From Buchnera aphidicola (Chaetosiphella stipae setosa) (lineage in GTDB: Bacteria; Pseudomonadota; Gammaproteobacteria; Enterobacterales; Enterobacteriaceae): DNA of 64,000 nucleotides. Under the pieces are notes generated by a model. The model made no database searches. It had not been told where the DNA came from and saw nothing but the letters and a program-made list of their open reading frames with translations. Positions within the stretch are counted from its first letter, which is position 1. Every line of letters starts with the position of its first letter. The DNA is taken from positions 8,106 to 72,105 of the forward strand of contig NZ_OZ060394.1 in NCBI RefSeq assembly GCF_964059095.1, given 5' to 3'. Positions 7,382-46,520 of the stretch are shown here, one piece after another. The position numbers and the translations under genes are program-made.

Positions 7382-8780
<1,399 letters not shown>

Positions 8781-12637: not shown

Positions 12638-13228
12638 TTATTTTTTTAAATAGATTTTATATTCTATTTTTTTTTGTTTTTTACTTTTTTTTAAAATCCA
12701 AGTTTTAGGAATTTCAATTTTTTGTTTAGAAATTTTTTTTTCAATGTAAATAATTGTATTTTTTTTAGTATATTTATTTTTTTCTAATAAAAATATAGTT
12801 TTTTGTAATAATTGAAGACAATTATAAGGAGGATCTAGAAAAATTATATCATAAGTGTTTTCTTTTTTTTTTAACCATTGTAAAGCATTTATATTAATTA
12901 TGTTGATTTCATGGATATTTAATTTTTTTAAATTCTTATACATTTTAAAAAAAATTTTTTTATTAATTTCAAGTGATGTTACTAATTTTGCATATCTTGA
13001 TATAGATTCTATTCCTAATATTCCGCTTCCTGCGAAACAATCTAAACATATTGAATTTTGAATATATTTGTTTAACCAATTAAATAAAGTTTCTCGAATA
13101 AAATTTTTTGTAGGTCTAAGATTTTTAGAATGAATAATATTTATTTTCTGTCTTTTAAGTTTTCCACCAATAATTTTTAAAGTATTTTTTTTAAATTTTT
13201 TTTTTTTATTCATTTTTTTATAATTCAT
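12638..13228 (-). CDS. rsmD: 16S rRNA m2G966 methyltransferase RsmD
   Basis: SAM-dependent methyltransferase acting on G966 of 16S rRNA. The 196 residues contain the SAM-binding glycine motif LDCFAGSGILG (about 62-72) and the catalytic LDPPY (about 131-135). The first residues are lysine-rich, and a second ATG lies five codons inside, so the exact start is uncertain. It is divergent from ftsY, as in E. coli, where rsmD neighbours ftsY-ftsE-ftsX-rpoH. Confidence 0.93.
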   Translation of the reverse strand: MNYKKMNKKKKFKKNTLKIIGGKLKRQKINIIHSKNLRPTKNFIRETLFNWLNKYIQNSICLDCFAGSGILGIESISRYAKLVTSLEINKKIFFKMYKNLKKLNIHEINIININALQWLKKKENTYDIIFLDPPYNCLQLLQKTIFLLEKNKYTKKNTIIYIEKKISKQKIEIPKTWILKKSKKQKKIEYKIYLKK

Positions 13229-20031: not shown

Positions 20032-23000
20032 TTATAAATTATTTGAATTTAATAGTTCTGATAAATTTGCAGAAGCTTTTTCTAAACTCGTTTGTTTTTT
20101 TGAAGATGATTTATTTTTTTTATTTTTATTAAATTTATTTTTTTTGATATTTTTTTTCAATAATCTATCTTGATGATATGAATAACCTGTTCCTGCAGGG
20201 ATTAATCTTCCAACAATAACGTTTTCTTTTAATCCTCTTAGTTCATCTATTTTTCCTGCAACTGCAGATTCTGTTAAGACTCTTGTTGTTTCTTGAAAAG
20301 ACGCTGCAGAAATAAAAGATTCTGTAGCAAGAGAAGCTTTTGTAATTCCTAATAAATCTCTTTCGTAACATATTTTTTTTTTATTATTTTTTTTTAATTT
20401 GATATTAGATATTCTGATGCGAGAATATTCTACTTGTTCTCCGTTTAAAAATTTAGATTCTCCATAATTTGTAATAGTTGCTTTTCTTAACATTTGTCGA
20501 ATAATAACTTCAATGTGTTTATCATTAATTTTCACTCCTTGTAATCGATATACTTCTTGTACTTCATTAATAATATATCTTGTAACAGCTTGAATACCTC
20601 TTAATCTTAAAATATCATGAGGTGATTCTGGACCGTCGGATATCACATCTCCTTTTTCTATTCTTTCTCCTTCAAATACATTCAATTGCCTCCATTTTGG
20701 AATCATTTCTTCATATGAAAATTTTTCATTTATTGGAGTAATTATTAATCTTCTTTTTCCTTTTGTTTCTTTTCCAAAAGATATAATTCCGCTTTTTTCA
20801 GCTAAAATTGCTGGTTCTTTTGGTTTTCTTGCTTCGAATAAATCTGCTACTCTAGGAAGTCCACCAGTAATATCTTTTGTACTAACAGATTCTTGAGGTA
20901 CTTTTGCTAATATATCTCCAGAACTTATTTTTTCTCCATCTTGAACATGAACAATTGTTTTTCCAGGCAAAAAATATTGCGCTGGCATTTGCGTTCCTGG
21001 TATGAAAACATCTTTTTTATCTGATTTTATTATTTTTAAAGCAGGTCTGAGATCTTTTCCTAATGCTGTTCGATTTGAAAGATCTAAAATAATAATTGAT
21101 GATATTCCAGTCATTTCATCAGTTTTTTTTATGATGCTTTGCCCTTCTAACATATCTATAAATTTTATGTATCCGTTAACTTCTGTTATTACAGGAATAG
21201 TATGAGGATCCCATGTAGCTATTATTTCTCCAGAAAAAACTTTTTCATGATTTTTTTTTTCTAGAATTGCTCCGTAAGGAATTTTGTAATTTTCTTGAGT
21301 TCTTCCTATTGAATCAATGATTTTTAGTTCAACATTTCTAGAAGTAATAACTATTTTATCCGAGGAGTTAATAACGAATTTTGAATTATTTAATCTTATA
21401 TTTCCATCATTTTTTGCTCTAATATTAGATTCTGTTGCTGTTCTTGAAGCGGCACCACCAATATGAAACGTTCTCATAGTTAATTGCGTTCCTGGTTCTC
21501 CTATAGATTGCGCTGCAATGACTCCAATCGCTTCTCCTTTTTTTACTAATTCCCCTCTTGCTAAATCTCTTCCATAACAGTATGCACATACACCAAAATT
21601 TGTTTCGCAATGTACAACTGATCTTACTTTAACTTTTTCGATGGAATTTTTTTCTAAAATATTGCAGTATTTTTCATTTAATAATGTATTTTTTTTAATT
21701 AAAATTTTTTTAGAATTTAATTTTAAAATATCTTTTAAAACGACTCTACCAAGAATTCTTTCTATTAATGGTTCTTTAATGTTTCCACCTTCTATGACAG
21801 AAGTCATAGTAATTCCTTTTTTTGTTTTACAATCTTTTTCTGTGACTACTAAATCTTGTGCTACATCTACTAATCTTCGTGTTAAATATCCGGAATTAGC
21901 TGTTTTTAATGCTGTATCAGCTAATCCTTTTCGTGCTCCATGGGTTGAAATAAAGTATTGTAAAACATTTAATCCTTCTCTAAAATTTGCTGTAATTGGT
22001 GTTTCTATAATCGATCCATCTGGTTTAGCCATTAAACCTCGCATTCCTGCAAGTTGACGTATTTGAGCAGCTGAACCTCTAGCTCCTGAATCTGCCATAA
22101 TAAAAATGCTGTTAAAAGAAGTTTGTTTTTTTCTTTCTCCTTTTGTATTTTTAGTTTTTACAGTTGATAAATTTTTCATCATAGATTTTGAAATTTTTTC
22201 ATTTGCTGCTGACCAAATATCTATGACTTTATTATATTTTTCTCCTTTTGTAACTAGTCCTGATTGAAATTGTTCTTGAATATCCAATACTTCTATTTTT
22301 GCATCATTGATAATTTGTGTTTTTTGAAAAGGTATTTCCATATCATCAATCCCTACAGAAGATCCCGAACGTGCAGCATATGAAAATCCTGTATACATAA
22401 TTTGATCTGCAAACAATACTGTTTTTTTAATTCCTAAGATTCTATGACATGTATTAATCATGTAAGAAATAGAATTTTTTTTTAAAGTTTTGTTGATCAT
22501 AGAAAAAGGAAGTCCTTTCGGGACGATATTCCATAAAATAGCTCGTCCTATAGTTGTTTTAATAATTTTTTGATATTTTTTTTGAATTTTTTTTTCTTTT
22601 TTTTCATATTCTGTAATTCTAATTTTTACAATAGAATGTAGTTCTGCTAATCCTAATTGATAAATTTTTTCTGCTTCTTTAGGTCCTGAAAGAAGCATGT
22701 TTTCTCCTTTTCCATTTTTTTTTTCTCGAGTCATATAATATAAACCAAGCACAACATCTTGAGATGGAACAACAATGGGTTCACCATTTGCTGGAGAAAG
22801 TATGTTATTTGTTGACATCATTAAATTTCTTGCTTCAACTTGAGATTCTAGTGTTAGAGGTATATGAACAGCCATTTGATCGCCATCAAAGTCAGCGTTA
22901 TATGCTGCACATACTAAAGGGTGTAATTGAATTGCTTTTCCTTCAATTAGTATAGGTTCAAAAGCTTGTATTCCTAATCTATGTAGAGTAGGTGCTCTAT

Positions 23001-24270
23001 TTAATAAAATAGGATGTTTTTTGATTACTTCATCTAAAATATCCCAGACAATAGGTTCTTCTTTTTCTACCATTTTTTTTGCAGATTTGATTGTATTTGC
23101 TAGGTTTTTTTCTTCTAGTTTTCCATATATAAATGGTTTAAAAAGTTCTAAAGCCATTTTTTTAGGTAATCCACATTGATTTAATTTTAGATAAGGTCCG
23201 ACTGTTATTACAGATCTTCCAGAATAATCTACTCTTTTTCCTAATAAATTTTGACGGAATCTTCCTTGTTTTCCTTTAATCATATCTGCTAATGATTTTA
23301 AAGGTCTTTTATTTGATCCAATAATTGCTCTTCCTCTTCTGCCATTATCTAAAAGAGCGTCTACTGATTCTTGCAACATTCTTTTTTCATTTCTAATGAT
23401 AATATCTGGAGCAGATAGTTCCAATAATCTTTTTAAACGATTATTTCTATTAATTACTCTTCTATATAAATCATTAAGATCAGAGGTTGCAAATCTTCCT
23501 CCATCTAAAGGGACTAGTGGTCTTAAATCTGGAGGTAATATTGGTAAAACAGTTAAAATCATCCATTCAGGTTTATTATTTGATTGTATAAAGGATTCTA
23601 TTAATTTAATTCTTTTTGTGATTTTTTTTTTCTTTGTTTCAGAGTTTGTTTTTTTTAGTTCTTTTCGGATTTTTTTACATTCTTTTTTTAAGTTTATTTT
23701 TTTTAGAAGATTTTGTATTGCTTCAGCTCCCATTTGAGCGATAAATTCATCTCCGTATTTTTCTATGGCTTCAATATTTTGTTCTTCAGTTAAAATTGAT
23801 TTATTTTTTAGTTTTGTCATTCCTTGATCAATAATTACGTATGATTCAAAATATAAGACTCTTTCAATATCTCTTAAAGGCATATCTAAGAGTAAACCAA
23901 TTCTAGATGGTAATGATTTTAAAAACCATATATGTGCTATAGGAGAAGCAAGTTCAATATGACCCATTCTTGAGCGTCTTACTTTACTTTTTGTTACTTC
24001 AACTCCACATTTTTCACATATTACTCCTCTATGTTTTAATCTTTTATATTTTCCACATAAACATTCATAGTCTTTTATTGGACCAAATATTTTTGCACAA
24101 AATAATCCATCTCTTTCAGGTTTAAATGTTCTATAATTTATAGTTTCTGGTTTTTTTACTTCGCCATAAGACCAAGATCTCATTATTTCTGGTGAAGATA
24201 AAGAGATTTTTATTGCATTAAAATCTTCTAAAATATTTTTTGATTTAATAAATTTAAATAATTCTTTCAA
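20032..24270 (-). CDS. rpoC: RNA polymerase beta' subunit
   Basis: Catalytic subunit of RNA polymerase. No ATG fits: the gene opens with tandem TTG codons (24273 and 24270) behind an AGGA. I choose the second, giving 1412 residues and MKELFKFIK, which matches the GTG-initiated E. coli MKDLLKFLK. The first zinc site CLCG...CEKC is near 70-88, the catalytic NADFDGD near 460, and the second zinc site includes [11 protein letters not shown]. The C-terminal tail is lysine/serine-rich. It lies 74 bases after rpoB in the usual operon order. Confidence 0.96.
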
Positions 24271-24344
24271 CAATTTATTCCTGTATTTTTTAATATTTTT
24301 AAAATAAAAATATTATTTATTTAAAATTGATTATTTTATGTTTT

Positions 24345-29645: not shown

Positions 29646-30329
29646 TTATTTTAAACTAGATTTTTTAATTTCTATTGCTTGACTCATTGTAGTTGTTAAA
29701 AATATTTTTTTAAAATACTTTCCTTTCATTTTATGAGGTTTTTGTTTTTTGAGTTCTTTAATAAGGCTTATTAAATTTTCTTTAATTTGTTTGATAGAAA
29801 AATTAATTTTTCCTATTGAGGAGTGTATAATTCCATTTTTTTCATTTTTATATCTTATTTGTCCGTTTTTTATTTTTTTTACTGTTTCGTAGATTTCAGA
29901 GGTAATTGTTCCCATTTTGTGATTTGGCATTAATCCTTTTGGGCCTAAAATAGATCCTAATAAACTGACTTGTTTCATAGATTCTGGGGTAGCAACTACT
30001 ACATGAAATTTAATTGTATTTTTTTTTATTTTTTTTGATAAATCATCCATTCCTATAAATTCAGCTCCTGCTTTTTTAGCTTCTTCTGCTTTTTTTCCAT
30101 TAGCAAATACTGCTACTATCATTTTTTTTCCCGTTCCGTGAGGTAAAACAGTTGAACCTCTAATATTTTGATCTGTCTGTTTTGCATTAATTCCTAGCAT
30201 AATTACTACATCAAAACTTTCAATGAATTTTTTTTTAGATTTTTTTTTTAAAATAGAAATAGCTTTTTCTATTTTTATTTTTTGAAATATTTTTTTTTTA
30301 TCATTTTTTTTTATTTTTTTATTTTTCAT
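29646..30329 (-). CDS. rplA: 50S ribosomal protein L1
   Basis: Binds 23S rRNA at the L1 stalk, which moves with tRNA exit. The 227 residues (E. coli 234) contain [42 protein letters not shown] and the C-terminal [11 protein letters not shown]. The N-terminus is unusually lysine-rich. The start codon overlaps the 3' end of rplK by 11 bases, so translation is probably coupled. In E. coli L1 represses the rplK-rplA mRNA. Confidence 0.96.
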
Positions 30330-30765
30330 ATTTTTCGAAATTTTCTATTTTTAAACCCATAGATTTTGCTGTGCCTATAATTGATTTATTTATCTTTTCT
30401 AATGTTGATCCAGTCATATCTTTTTTTTTAATTTTAGATATTTCTTTTATTTGTGAGTATTTTATACTTCCAACAAATTCTATATTTGGTTTTTTTGATC
30501 CTGATTGTATTCCTGCGTATTTTTTTAGTAATACTGATGCAGGAGGTGTTTTTTGCACAAAAGTAAAAGTTTTATCTGAATATACAGTTATAATAACAGG
30601 TATAGGAATTCCTTTTTCTAAAGATGAAGTTTCTGCATTAAATTTTCTACAAAAATCCATAATGTTTAATCCTTTTTGACCTAATGCTGGACCAATAGGA
30701 GGGCTTGGGTTAGCTTGACCAGCTGGTATTTGAAGTTTTATATATGAGTCAATTTTTTTTGCCAT
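30319..30765 (-). CDS. rplK: 50S ribosomal protein L11
   Basis: Forms the GTPase-associated centre with 23S rRNA. The 148 residues begin [20 protein letters not shown] and contain the proline-rich hinge [17 protein letters not shown] and [20 protein letters not shown]. coli L11 has 142 residues; the extra six at the C-terminus (NFEKYEK) create the 11-base overlap with rplA. It lies 35 bases after nusG. Confidence 0.97.
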
Positions 30766-30800: not shown

Positions 30801-31354
30801 TTATAAATTTTTTTCTACTTGGTTAAAATCTAATTCTACAGGTGTAGATCTTCCAAAAATAGATACTGAAACTTTTAATCTATTTTTGTTATAGTCTACT
30901 TCTTCGACAATTCCATTAAAATCTGAAAATGGACCACTATTTACTCGAACGTTTTCTCCAGGTTCAAAAAGTATTTTTGGTCGAGGTTTATCTCCAATTT
31001 TTTTGAGTTTTTTTTGAATTTTTTTAATTTCATTTTTATTAACTGGAAAAGGATTTTCTGAAGAACCGCCTATAAATCCTATAACTTTAGGAATATTTTT
31101 TATTAAATGCCAGTTAAATTCATTCATAATCATTTTAATAAATATGTATCCAGGAAAAAATTTATTTTTACTTTTTGTTCTTTTTCCTTTTTTAATTTCT
31201 ATCACTTCTTCTGATGGAACTAAAATTTCTCCAAACATTTTCCTTCTTTTTTTTTTTTGAAGGTTGTCTTTTATAGATTTAACAACTTTATCTTCATATC
31301 CAGAATAAATTTGTATTGCATACCATTTTTTTTTTTTTGATCTAAAATTTTCAT
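30801..31354 (-). CDS. nusG: Transcription factor NusG, interrupted by an out-of-frame A13 tract
   Basis: Processivity and Rho-linked elongation factor. The ATG at 31352-31354 has AGGA eight bases upstream and reads MKILDQKKK, then runs into 13 A residues (31326-31338 on this strand). After the tract the conserved NusG start [11 protein letters not shown] is one base out of frame. One more A would give a 184-residue protein, and the 30 residues from the tryptophan to FGEILVP match E. coli in spacing exactly. The frame then stays open through the KOW domain ([13 protein letters not shown]) to the stop, crossing a second, in-frame A12 tract. The downstream ATG at 31238 would lose the first 40 residues and has its AGGA only two bases away. 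Slippage at A tracts is known to rescue Buchnera genes. Confidence 0.9.
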
Positions 31355-31365
31355 AGATATTTTCC

Positions 31366-31746
31366 TTAATTTTTAAAGTATGTAATTAAAGATATTGTAT
31401 AAAAAATTATTCCATCTATTCCCCATAATAAAACAGAGATTAGTGAACTAATTATTATAATCATAAATGTTGTATGTAATGTTTCTGTTTTTGTTGGATA
31501 GGAAATATTTTGTATTTCTGATTTTGTATTTTTGAAAGTGGAAATTAAATATGAGAAATTTTTTGCTATAATTGATAAAACAGTACCAATAATGAGAGAT
31601 ATAATTGCTAAATCAGCATATTGAGATTGAATTGATAAAATTTTATATTTTTTGTTTAAAAGTAAGATAAAAATGAAAAAAATATTGATAGAAATTAATA
31701 TTTTTCCTAAGGGTATTCTTTTTGTATAATTAATATTAGATTTCAT
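31366..31746 (-). CDS. secE: Preprotein translocase subunit SecE
   Basis: Essential clamp of the SecYEG channel in the inner membrane. The 126 residues match E. coli's three-helix form (127): helices at about 14-30 and 40-60 and a third near 91-121. The conserved cytoplasmic segment before helix 3 reads [12 protein letters not shown] (E. coli WPTRQETLHTT), followed by [10 protein letters not shown]. The stop codon sits just before the nusG Shine-Dalgarno, giving a tight secE-nusG pair. In E. coli tufB precedes it; here the tRNA-Thr gene does. Confidence 0.95.
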
Positions 31747-33512: not shown

Positions 33513-33693
33513 ATAATTTTATTTGAAAGATCAATTTTTAAAAAAATTCTGATATAATATTTTTAGATAATTTATTTTATATTAAGTAAAATCTTTTATA
33601 AATTTTTTTTAGTTTAATATCGAATCTTTCTAGCTGTAATAACATTTGTAATTTTTATATTATATTTAAAATAAAAAATTTAGGAGTATCATT

Positions 33694-34893
33694 TTGAGTA
33701 AAAAAATTGTTGTTTTAGCTTATTCCGGAGGATTAGATACTTCAGCAATTATTCCTTGGATTAAGGAAAATTATGATTTAAATGTGTTTGCTTTAGTAGT
33801 AGATATTGGACAATCTTTTGAAGATTTACAAGATATTGAAAAAAAAGCAATTAGTTCTGGAGCAATTGGATGTCAAATAATTGATTTAAAAGAAAAGTTT
33901 GTGAATGATTATGTGTATCCATTATTAAAAATTGGAGCATTATATGAAGGTTCATATCTTTTAGGAACTGCGATTGCTAGACCAATAATAGCAAAAGCAC
34001 AAATAGATTTTGCTAAAAAAATTGGTGCAGTGGCATTAGCTCATGGAGCTACTGGGAAAGGAAACGATCAAGTAAGGTTTGAAATGGTTTATGCTTCTTT
34101 AGATTCCAAATTAAAGATTATTTCTCCATGGAGAGAATGGGATTTTAAATCTCGAGAAGATTTATTAAAATATTTAAAAGAAAAAAATATTCCAACAAAC
34201 GCAACTAAAAAGAAAATATATAGTAGAGATGAGAATATTTTTCATATTTCTACTGAAGGTGGAGTATTGGAAGATTTATGGAATAAGGCTAGTAAAGATT
34301 GTTGGGTGTGGACACAAGATGTAGAAAATGCTCCAAATGATCCTGAATATGTTGTTTTAGGAATTCAAAATGGATATGTTAATTCTATTAATAATGTTAA
34401 AAAAAGTCCGTATCAATGTTTAAAACAATTAAATAAAATTGGTTCTATTCATGGTATTGGAAGAATAGATATCGTTGAAAATAGATTAGTTGGTTTAAAA
34501 TCTCGTGGTTGTTATGAAACTCCTGGTGGAACTATTATTTATCAAGCAATTAGAGCTATTGAACAGTTAGTTTTTGATAAAGATTCTATGAAGTGGAAAG
34601 AGAATTTAGCATTAGAAATGTCTCATTTAATTTATGATGGAAAATGGTTTTCACCTATAAGAGAGTCTATTCAATCTGCTTCTAATGTCTTGTCTGAAGT
34701 TGTTACTGGTACTGTGGTTTTAAAGTTATATAAAGGTTCTGTATATGCAGTACAAAAAAAATCAGTTAATTCTTTATATTTACGATCATATTCTACTTTT
34801 AGTGAAGATAATGTATATAAACAATCTGATGCTTCTGGTTTTATTAATTTGTATTCTCTCTCTACGAGAATTCGTTCTATTCAAAAAAAATAA
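33694..34893 (+). CDS. argG: Argininosuccinate synthase
   Basis: Joins citrulline and aspartate using ATP, the penultimate arginine step. The 399 residues start at TTG (33694), with AGGAG seven bases upstream and no nearer ATG. The N-type ATP pyrophosphatase loop SGGLDTS lies at 11-17, and [19 protein letters not shown] [15 protein letters not shown] further on. The length fits the roughly 400-residue form, not the longer E. coli ArgG. It lies 181 bases after metF and about 70 bases before argH; argE, argC and argB are not between. Confidence 0.96.
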
Positions 34894-44438: not shown

Positions 44439-46166
44439 TCATAACAGATTATTTTCTTTATTAAATTTTTTAAGTAATTTTTTTATTTTTTTTACTGTAG
44501 ATTGTTGAAGAACTTTTTTAGCTAGTATTTTTGCTTTTTTAAAATTAATTTTTCTAATAATATTTTTAATAATTGGTATAGAGATTGAGCTCATACTTAA
44601 TTCATCTATTCCCATACCTACTAGTAAAGAAATTGCTTTTTCATTACTTGCAAGTTCACCGCATATTCCAGTCCATTTTTTTGCTTTATGTGATTCTTTG
44701 ATTACTTTTTTTATTAAATATAAGACGGAAGGACTCATAGGTTGATATAAATTTGAGATAATTTCATTTCCTCGATCTACAGCTAATGTGTATTGCGTAA
44801 GATCATTAGTTCCAATACTAAAAAAATCAACTTCTTTTGCAAGATGTTTAGAAATTATAGCAGATGAAGGTGTTTCTATCATAACGCCTAATTCTATTTT
44901 CTTATCAAATTTTATTTTATTTTTTTTAAGTTTTATTTTGATTTTATTTAATTCTTGTTTTAAAAAATAAATTTCTTCCATAGATATTATCATTGGAAAC
45001 ATTATTTTAAATTTTCCATAAGCTGAAGCGCGTAGAATAGCTTTAAGTTGATCATGTAAAATTTGAATATTATTAATAGAAACTCTAATTGCTCTCCATC
45101 CAAGAAAGGGATTTTCTTCTGGAGGAAAATTCATGTATGAAAGATTTTTATCTCCTCCAATATCCATTGTTCTAATAATAATATGTTTTCCATGCATTTT
45201 TTTTGCAACTTTTTTGTACGCTTGAAATTGTTCTTCTTCAGATGGTAAGTTATTTCTACCCATGAATAAAAATTCTGTTCTGTAAAGACCAATACATTCA
45301 GCTCCATATTTTTTAGATCCAATAGTGTCTTTGTAATTTCCTATATTTGATCCTATTTTTATTTTTTTTCCGTCTAAAGTAATTGCATGTACTTTCTTTA
45401 GGGAAATTAATTTTTTTTGTTTTTCGAAATATTGTTTCCTAATTATTTTGAATTCTTTAATTTGTTGTTTTGACGGATTTATAATAATTTCATTATCAAT
45501 GCCATTTAATATTATATAGTCGTTATTTTTTATTTTTTCTGTAATATTTCCCATTCCAACTATAGCTGGTATTTCTAAAGATCTAGCCATAATAGATGTA
45601 TGAGATGTTTTTCCTCCTAAATCTGTTGCAAAACCGAGTATTTTTTTAAAATTCATTTGTGCAGTTTGAGATGGAGTTAAATCTTTTGTTATAAGAATTA
45701 CTTTTTTTTGAATATTATTTAAATCAATAATAGGTATTTTTAATATATTTTTTAATAATCTATTTCCTATATCTCTAATATCTATTGCTCTATTTTTTAA
45801 ATATTCATCTTTTAATTTTTCTAATGATGAAATTTGTTCTTGAATTATTTTTTCTACAGCATGATCAGAAGTAATCATTTTTTTTTTAATTAAAGAAATA
45901 ATTTCTTTTTCTAATTCTTCATCTTCTAATATTAATATATGACCTTCAAAGATAGACGATTTTTCTTTTCCAAATTTTTTTTTTGCTTGATTTTGTATTT
46001 CTTTTAGTTGTTTTTTTGATTTTTTTCTTGCTTTAAAAAATTTTTCAATTTCTATATTAATATTCTTTTTAGAGATTTTTTTTACGTTAATGTTTATTTT
46101 TTTTTCTTTAAAAAGGAGGGCTTTTCCAAAAACAATGCCTGGCGATGCTAAAATTCCTGAAATCAT
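44439..46166 (-). CDS. ptsI: PTS enzyme I
   Basis: Starts the sugar phosphotransferase cascade by moving phosphate from PEP to HPr. The 575 residues equal E. coli. The active-site His189 is at the expected position in GGKTSHTSIMARS, followed by LEIPAIVGMG. PEP-binding signatures GLYRTEFLFMGR, RTMDIGGDK and FFSIGTNDLTQYTLAVDR are intact. It lies 96 bases after ptsH. Confidence 0.97.
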   Translation of the reverse strand: MISGILASPGIVFGKALLFKEKKININVKKISKKNINIEIEKFFKARKKSKKQLKEIQNQAKKKFGKEKSSIFEGHILILEDEELEKEIISLIKKKMITSDHAVEKIIQEQISSLEKLKDEYLKNRAIDIRDIGNRLLKNILKIPIIDLNNIQKKVILITKDLTPSQTAQMNFKKILGFATDLGGKTSHTSIMARSLEIPAIVGMGNITEKIKNNDYIILNGIDNEIIINPSKQQIKEFKIIRKQYFEKQKKLISLKKVHAITLDGKKIKIGSNIGNYKDTIGSKKYGAECIGLYRTEFLFMGRNNLPSEEEQFQAYKKVAKKMHGKHIIIRTMDIGGDKNLSYMNFPPEENPFLGWRAIRVSINNIQILHDQLKAILRASAYGKFKIMFPMIISMEEIYFLKQELNKIKIKLKKNKIKFDKKIELGVMIETPSSAIISKHLAKEVDFFSIGTNDLTQYTLAVDRGNEIISNLYQPMSPSVLYLIKKVIKESHKAKKWTGICGELASNEKAISLLVGMGIDELSMSSISIPIIKNIIRKINFKKAKILAKKVLQQSTVKKIKKLLKKFNKENNLL

Positions 46167-46262
46167 GACATTACCTTTGAATAAAATGAATTATAAATGT
46201 TTAATATGTAAATATTTTTGAAAAATTTTATTTATAAAATATTTTTCTAATAAATAAGTTTT

Positions 46263-46520
46263 TTATATGAGTTTTTTCATTAGAGTAGATAATTTTTCGA
46301 TTGCTTTTTTTTCATCTGATCCATTAGCAGATAAAGTTATCTTGCTTCCTTGACTTAACCCTAATGTTTGTAATTTAAATAGACTTTTTGCGTTTGCTGT
46401 TTTACCATTTGAAGTTATTGTAATTTTTGAATTATATTTTTTTGCTTCTTGCACAAGTTGTGCTGCAGGTCTAGTATGTAAACCATTTGGTGAGTTAATA
46501 TATATTTTTTTTTCAAACAT
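46263..46520 (-). CDS. ptsH: PTS phosphocarrier protein HPr
   Basis: Small phosphocarrier between enzyme I and the sugar-specific enzymes II. The 85 residues equal E. coli. His15 is phosphorylated ([10 protein letters not shown]) and Ser46 lies in [12 protein letters not shown]. It is first of ptsH-ptsI-crr. The 298 bases upstream hold no gene; E. coli has cysK there. Confidence 0.97.

Follow-up and report, generated by a model that had tools for sequence, protein, structure and literature searches.

Poly-A frameshifts that are rescued by transcriptional slippage are said to have been described by Tamas et al. in 2008 in cell-wall genes and a histidine gene, and Wernegreen et al. reportedly found in 2010 that old frameshifts are kept in homopolymers of Blochmannia. 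The nusG gene that we analyze here resembles the Buchnera and Blochmannia cases of Tamas et al. in its setting, an AT-rich insect symbiont, and in its form, a frameshift at a long A run in a gene that is otherwise intact. It differs from them in that its product is a transcription elongation factor. In the earlier symbiont cases 12-50% of transcripts are corrected, according to a passage in a review (PMC5009743). The Blochmannia frameshifts are summarised in PMC3017870 as conserved from population to population and from species to species, with no decay of the genes, and frameshifted genes of this kind are counted as intact in a later genome paper on Blochmannia (PMC4389277). The present case lies in another symbiont and another gene, and consists of one offset in ten genomes of one clade. 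A homopolymer run also yields mixed mRNAs from a single gene in Thermus thermophilus dnaX, as outlined in the review (PMC5009743), although there the genomic frame encodes the long product and slippage gives the short one, the reverse of nusG. The -1 ribosomal frameshift of E. coli dnaX, as outlined in the same source (PMC5009743), is alike in its slippery lysine codons, but nusG is without a consistent downstream structure. Slippage rescue is already known from Buchnera and Blochmannia, and frameshifts that are old and shared from Blochmannia; the nusG case adds to these. In the open-access literature that we searched we found no earlier report of a nusG frameshift in Buchnera, and in PMC6260861 nusG appears only in the reference list.

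The window is a 64,000-nucleotide stretch of contig NZ_OZ060394.1, from a Buchnera-type genome of 462 kb, and the features of its nusG locus are collected in Table 1. On the minus strand the ATG (31354-31352) is followed by AAAATTTTAGATC, then by the A13 run (31338-31326) and, directly after it, by a conserved TGG codon for tryptophan (31325-31323). From ATG to TGG is a distance of 29 nt, which leaves a remainder of 2, so the ATG is one base out of frame with the NusG body. Read in the shifted frame, the protein matches the equivalog profile TIGR00922 with 214.6 bits against a curated cut-off of 135.7, and the match is full-length, beginning at profile position 1 and covering 1-171 of 172. Its residues 1-172 align without gaps to residues 12-183 of 6gov_G, a solved chain named NusG, and it is the only NusG family match in the window genome. 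The upstream neighbour we take to be secE, from its position and size, and the downstream neighbour is presumably rplK-like. The initial annotation had described a nusG split at the A13 run and one base out of frame, an ATG with a well-spaced AGGA, codons intact from the run to the stop, an E. coli-like spacing from Trp to FGEI, a second tract that is in frame, and a 184-residue NusG once one A is added; our reading of the frames and the gapless alignment bear out all of these.

Table 1. Features of the nusG locus in the window (window positions; all on the minus strand).
Feature	Position	Strand	Basis or conservation
AGGA Shine-Dalgarno-like site	31363..31366	-	8 nt before the ATG, overlaps the stop of the upstream ORF; direct read
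nusG start codon ATG	31352..31354	-	ATGAAAA invariant in 10/10 genomes
A13 run, putative slippage site	31326..31338	-	A11-A13 in 10/10 genomes, last 11 columns invariant
Frame opened by the ATG, 27 residues, then stop	31271..31354	-	reading of frame
NusG body, Trp to stop, shifted frame, 174 aa + stop	30801..31325	-	profile match, chain alignment
Second nusG A run, A12, in frame	31247..31258	-	longest run there varies over 5-15 A among the ten
Internal in-frame ATG (MFGEI)	31236..31238	-	codon common only to G004 among the ten
Upstream neighbour ORF	31366..31746	-	ORF list
Downstream neighbour ORF	30319..30765	-	ORF list

This arrangement extends well beyond the window genome. A protein search found nusG in all 11 genomes of the genus that were compared, and in ten of them, the window genome included, the ATG lies exactly 29 nt from the TGG and out of frame with it; repetition of the offset in nine of the ten genus-mates is beyond chance. 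The run is A13 in seven of the ten, A11 in two (G007 and G008) and A12 in one (G010), and the sequence between ATG and TGG is otherwise changed among them, yet the 139-nt alignment of the ten is free of gaps, the final 11 A columns of the run are invariant and the TGG is retained throughout. In G001 the ATG frame is already closed by a stop after MKKKN, ahead of the last A run, so the frame shift there must occur in an earlier A11 run. The eleventh genome, G006, has an in-frame nusG with 15 nt from ATG to TGG. A tree of NusG and RplK, built from 34 loci (4 of 38 were omitted), joins the ten out-of-frame genomes in one clade (support 98/94) and puts G006, which has a long branch, beside them, with 97/88 for the eleven together; in a midpoint-rooted tree of RpoB and RpoC from the eleven genomes G006 likewise stands apart. 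More distant nusG loci numbered at least 105, of which 99 were read by script and 6 were not read, and an in-frame start within 40 codons is present in all 99 readable loci among the matches listed. As the alignments and trees read, the frameshifted state is ancestral and shared, a point that the initial annotation overlooked and that moves the question from how damage is repaired to why the offset has been kept.

No in-frame ATG, GTG or TTG was found upstream of the NusG body in any of the ten genomes. An upstream near-cognate start can be rejected as well, because in G003, G004, G007, G009 and G010 the shifted frame is bounded by a stop shortly before the run, and the only codons available ahead of the Trp are 3-6 that encode Ser, Lys, Pro, Thr or Tyr. 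Counted from the Trp, pN/pS in the shifted frame is 0.145 over codons 1-20, 0.282 over codons 1-30 and 0.217 over codons 31-170, and the other two frames give 0.79 and 1.33 over codons 1-20; by this measure, purifying selection acts on the 20 codons that follow the run. Because the offset is shared by ten genomes, without an upstream start and with codons 1-20 under purifying selection, the comparison identifies nusG as an old frameshift that needs recoding, not a recent lesion or an error of sequencing. The claim that full-length NusG requires the reading frame to change at the A run is in this way strongly supported. Poly-A frameshifts are recognized by a run of about 9 or more in a gene that is otherwise intact and under purifying selection, as is found here, and old homopolymer frameshifts by their common descent, which here takes the form of one frameshift in 10 genomes on the single branch described above.

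It is likely, on this comparative evidence, that the 29-nt offset is maintained, and it may be so for a benefit. Among runs of at least 10, pair comparisons showed a change of length in 32 of 72 cases for non-coding runs and in 42 of 654 for coding runs; these comparisons overlap and are not independent. The non-coding figure leads us to expect that an unconstrained run would vary, whereas the nusG ATG-to-TGG interval shows zero length change across the ten genomes. Of the 82 A-run sites compared in coding sequence, from 32 ortholog groups, the nusG run stands first, tied with an in-frame run in rpoC. Both were scored 9/10 by script, and direct reading puts nusG at 10/10; the scripted count falls short because the G007 ORF starts inside the run. 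The similar retention of this rpoC run weakens tract conservation as proof of selection, and lysine codons are 95.7% AAA in these genomes regardless. The second nusG run offers a contrast within the same gene, its length not being conserved (Table 1).

Homopolymers are prone to sequencing error, and one might suspect that the nusG run was simply misread or misassembled. We give this almost no credence: ten genomes have the same 29-nt offset despite differing sequence and runs of 11, 12 and 13, and these assemblies contain many other coding runs of at least 11 (in the stretches read, 23-44 per genome). Agreement of ten genomes excludes a private mutation or assembly error, and it makes 14 A residues in the genome very unlikely. 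That nusG is an early pseudogene strikes us as extremely improbable. The frame is broken, and genes have decayed elsewhere in the genus (G001, G002 and the window genome), but the sole stop in the nusG matches is a TAA in G007 that lies directly upstream of the run and outside the NusG body, pN/pS of 0.15-0.28 along the gene is a signal of selection over ten lineages that contradicts decay, and Rho, NusA and GreA are found in 11/11 genomes. It is also very unlikely that NusG is made from an alternative start, whether the ATG at 31238 or a near-cognate ATA or ATT at codons 4 and 6 from the Trp. The window does have an in-frame ATG at codon 29 past the Trp (zero-based), and ATA and ATT are present at codons 4 and 6 in 10/10 genomes. 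However, the first in-frame ATG, GTG or TTG past the Trp falls at codon 29 in two genomes, at codon 34 in three and at codon 64 or later in five, and a downstream start would require neither the TGG kept in 10/10 nor the purifying selection on codons 1-20. The initial annotation had placed the internal ATG correctly, but a start there is not conserved among the ten genomes, and we reject it as the source of NusG.

We think it quite probable, from the comparative pattern, that a one-base phase change took place in the common ancestor of the ten Buchnera lineages, was kept, and is rescued by slippage of RNA polymerase, and transcriptional slippage that adds one A is the best-supported mechanism. 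The phase change near the nusG start would have arisen at the poly-A run in this ancestor. RNA polymerase would slip on A11-A13, such that a fraction of transcripts gains one A (or loses two); slipped transcripts would be translated from the normal ATG into full-length NusG, and from unslipped transcripts no more than a 27-residue peptide would be made. Selection would then hold both run and phase, most simply because NusG output is lowered or because rescue is already sufficient. One additional A restores the nusG frame in all ten genomes. In the part of a Buchnera transcriptome study that we use, 151 of 157 insertions lie in homopolymers, at a rate that climbs with run length, and they are mostly single bases in A/T runs (PMC5574713); in E. 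coli lacZ with runs of 7-11 A, a passage of PMC6260861 gives insertions as at least twice as efficient as deletions. Counting against slippage, the same part of the transcriptome study states that frame-restoring transcription errors were not detected (PMC5574713), and according to PMC6260861 the E. coli polymerase favours poly-T, while work cited there has deletions predominating on A11 in vitro. The initial annotation had proposed slippage rescue; the need for a frame change stands, and we infer the mechanism itself, both slippage at the nusG run and its rate, from the literature and the length of the tract. It is also possible, although unlikely, that -1 ribosomal frameshifting does the work, perhaps alongside slippage: ribosomes would slide back by one base on AAA codons (A_AAA_AAA) and read the TGG frame from unedited mRNA, which would yield an identical NusG protein. 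A zero-frame slippery heptamer is present, as AAA AAA AAA AAT (Lys-Lys-Lys-Asn) in nine of the ten genomes and as AAA AAA AAA AAC in G001. Seven A are enough for such sliding, but all ten genomes retain at least 11, more than the heptamer requires. Neither was a consistent downstream stem-loop found in the ten genomes (z between -1.19 and +1.31 for 70 nt against mononucleotide shuffles), nor did we notice an internal Shine-Dalgarno-like stimulator in the alignment of the ten, read by eye.

Slippage of RNA polymerase at this gene invites a further speculation, which on present sequence comparisons we regard as distinctly improbable: the out-of-frame run may serve as a regulatory device, with NusG affecting the polymerase at its own A run and, together with Rho, what becomes of nusG transcripts that have not slipped. 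These would be untranslated past at most 27 codons, and the level of NusG would set its own corrected fraction. Such a feedback loop would explain why ten lineages keep the same offset. Matches to Rho, GreA and NusA lie above the cut-off in every one of the eleven genomes, so the machinery for a loop between NusG and Rho exists.

Starts were surveyed for 590 conserved ORFs in 55-69 kb around nusG in the eleven genomes; 103 were flagged and read by hand, and upstream in-frame extensions, TTG or GTG starts and antisense or tRNA-region ORFs were set aside. Internal frame changes were scanned for in ORFs of at least 80 aa over the same 55-69 kb, and an extra 93 kb in G000, G007, G009 and G010 was scanned for internal frame changes only. 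Within the sequence covered, roughly a third of the genome in four species and a seventh in the rest, with scans that were not exhaustive, nusG is the only frameshift found in more than two genomes. Besides nusG there are four otherwise intact homopolymer frameshifts (in G009, G005, G010 and the window genome), and a shift at a long run is therefore not in itself rare. The gene names used for these and the following loci (dnaA, rsmD, CvpA-like, metE-like, rpoC-like and argG-like) are our own presumed assignments. A dnaA-like gene has a frame change in G009 alone (C1:6000-25000, 7851-8012), near A14 and A11 runs and conserved on both sides. An rsmD-like gene, the homologue of window positions 12638-13228, has its N-terminal ATG out of frame at A12 in G005 and at A16 in G010; in G009 and the other eight genomes this ATG is in frame. 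In the window genome a CvpA-like gene outside the window (C1:127000-146000, at about C1:140000) shifts frame at a T10 run, with both parts open and similar to relatives, and the gene directly behind it is interrupted by many stops. Decay of this kind, with many stops, was also seen in G001, where a metE-like gene occupies 20600-21450 of the joined region, and in G002, at 45500-46400 of its joined region, the latter containing an A18 run. NusA of the window genome (C1:305000-308000) ends at 359 residues, compared with open frames of 493-511 in the ten genus-mates; stops crowd the region behind it (the window genome and G004 were read), suggesting that the C-terminal part of NusA has decayed in the window lineage. 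In the window and in several relatives, the rpoC-like (20035-24312) and argG-like (33670-34890) genes lack an ATG close to where they should begin, and TTG is their probable start codon.

What sets nusG apart is its target, an elongation factor of RNA polymerase, and an offset that is constant clade-wide. Throughout a whole symbiont clade, recoding appears to be needed to make a conserved elongation factor. The clade provides a natural, replicated test of whether a frameshift is tolerated damage or a kept control of expression, and nusG would allow polymerase slippage to be studied on the gene of one of the polymerase's own partners.
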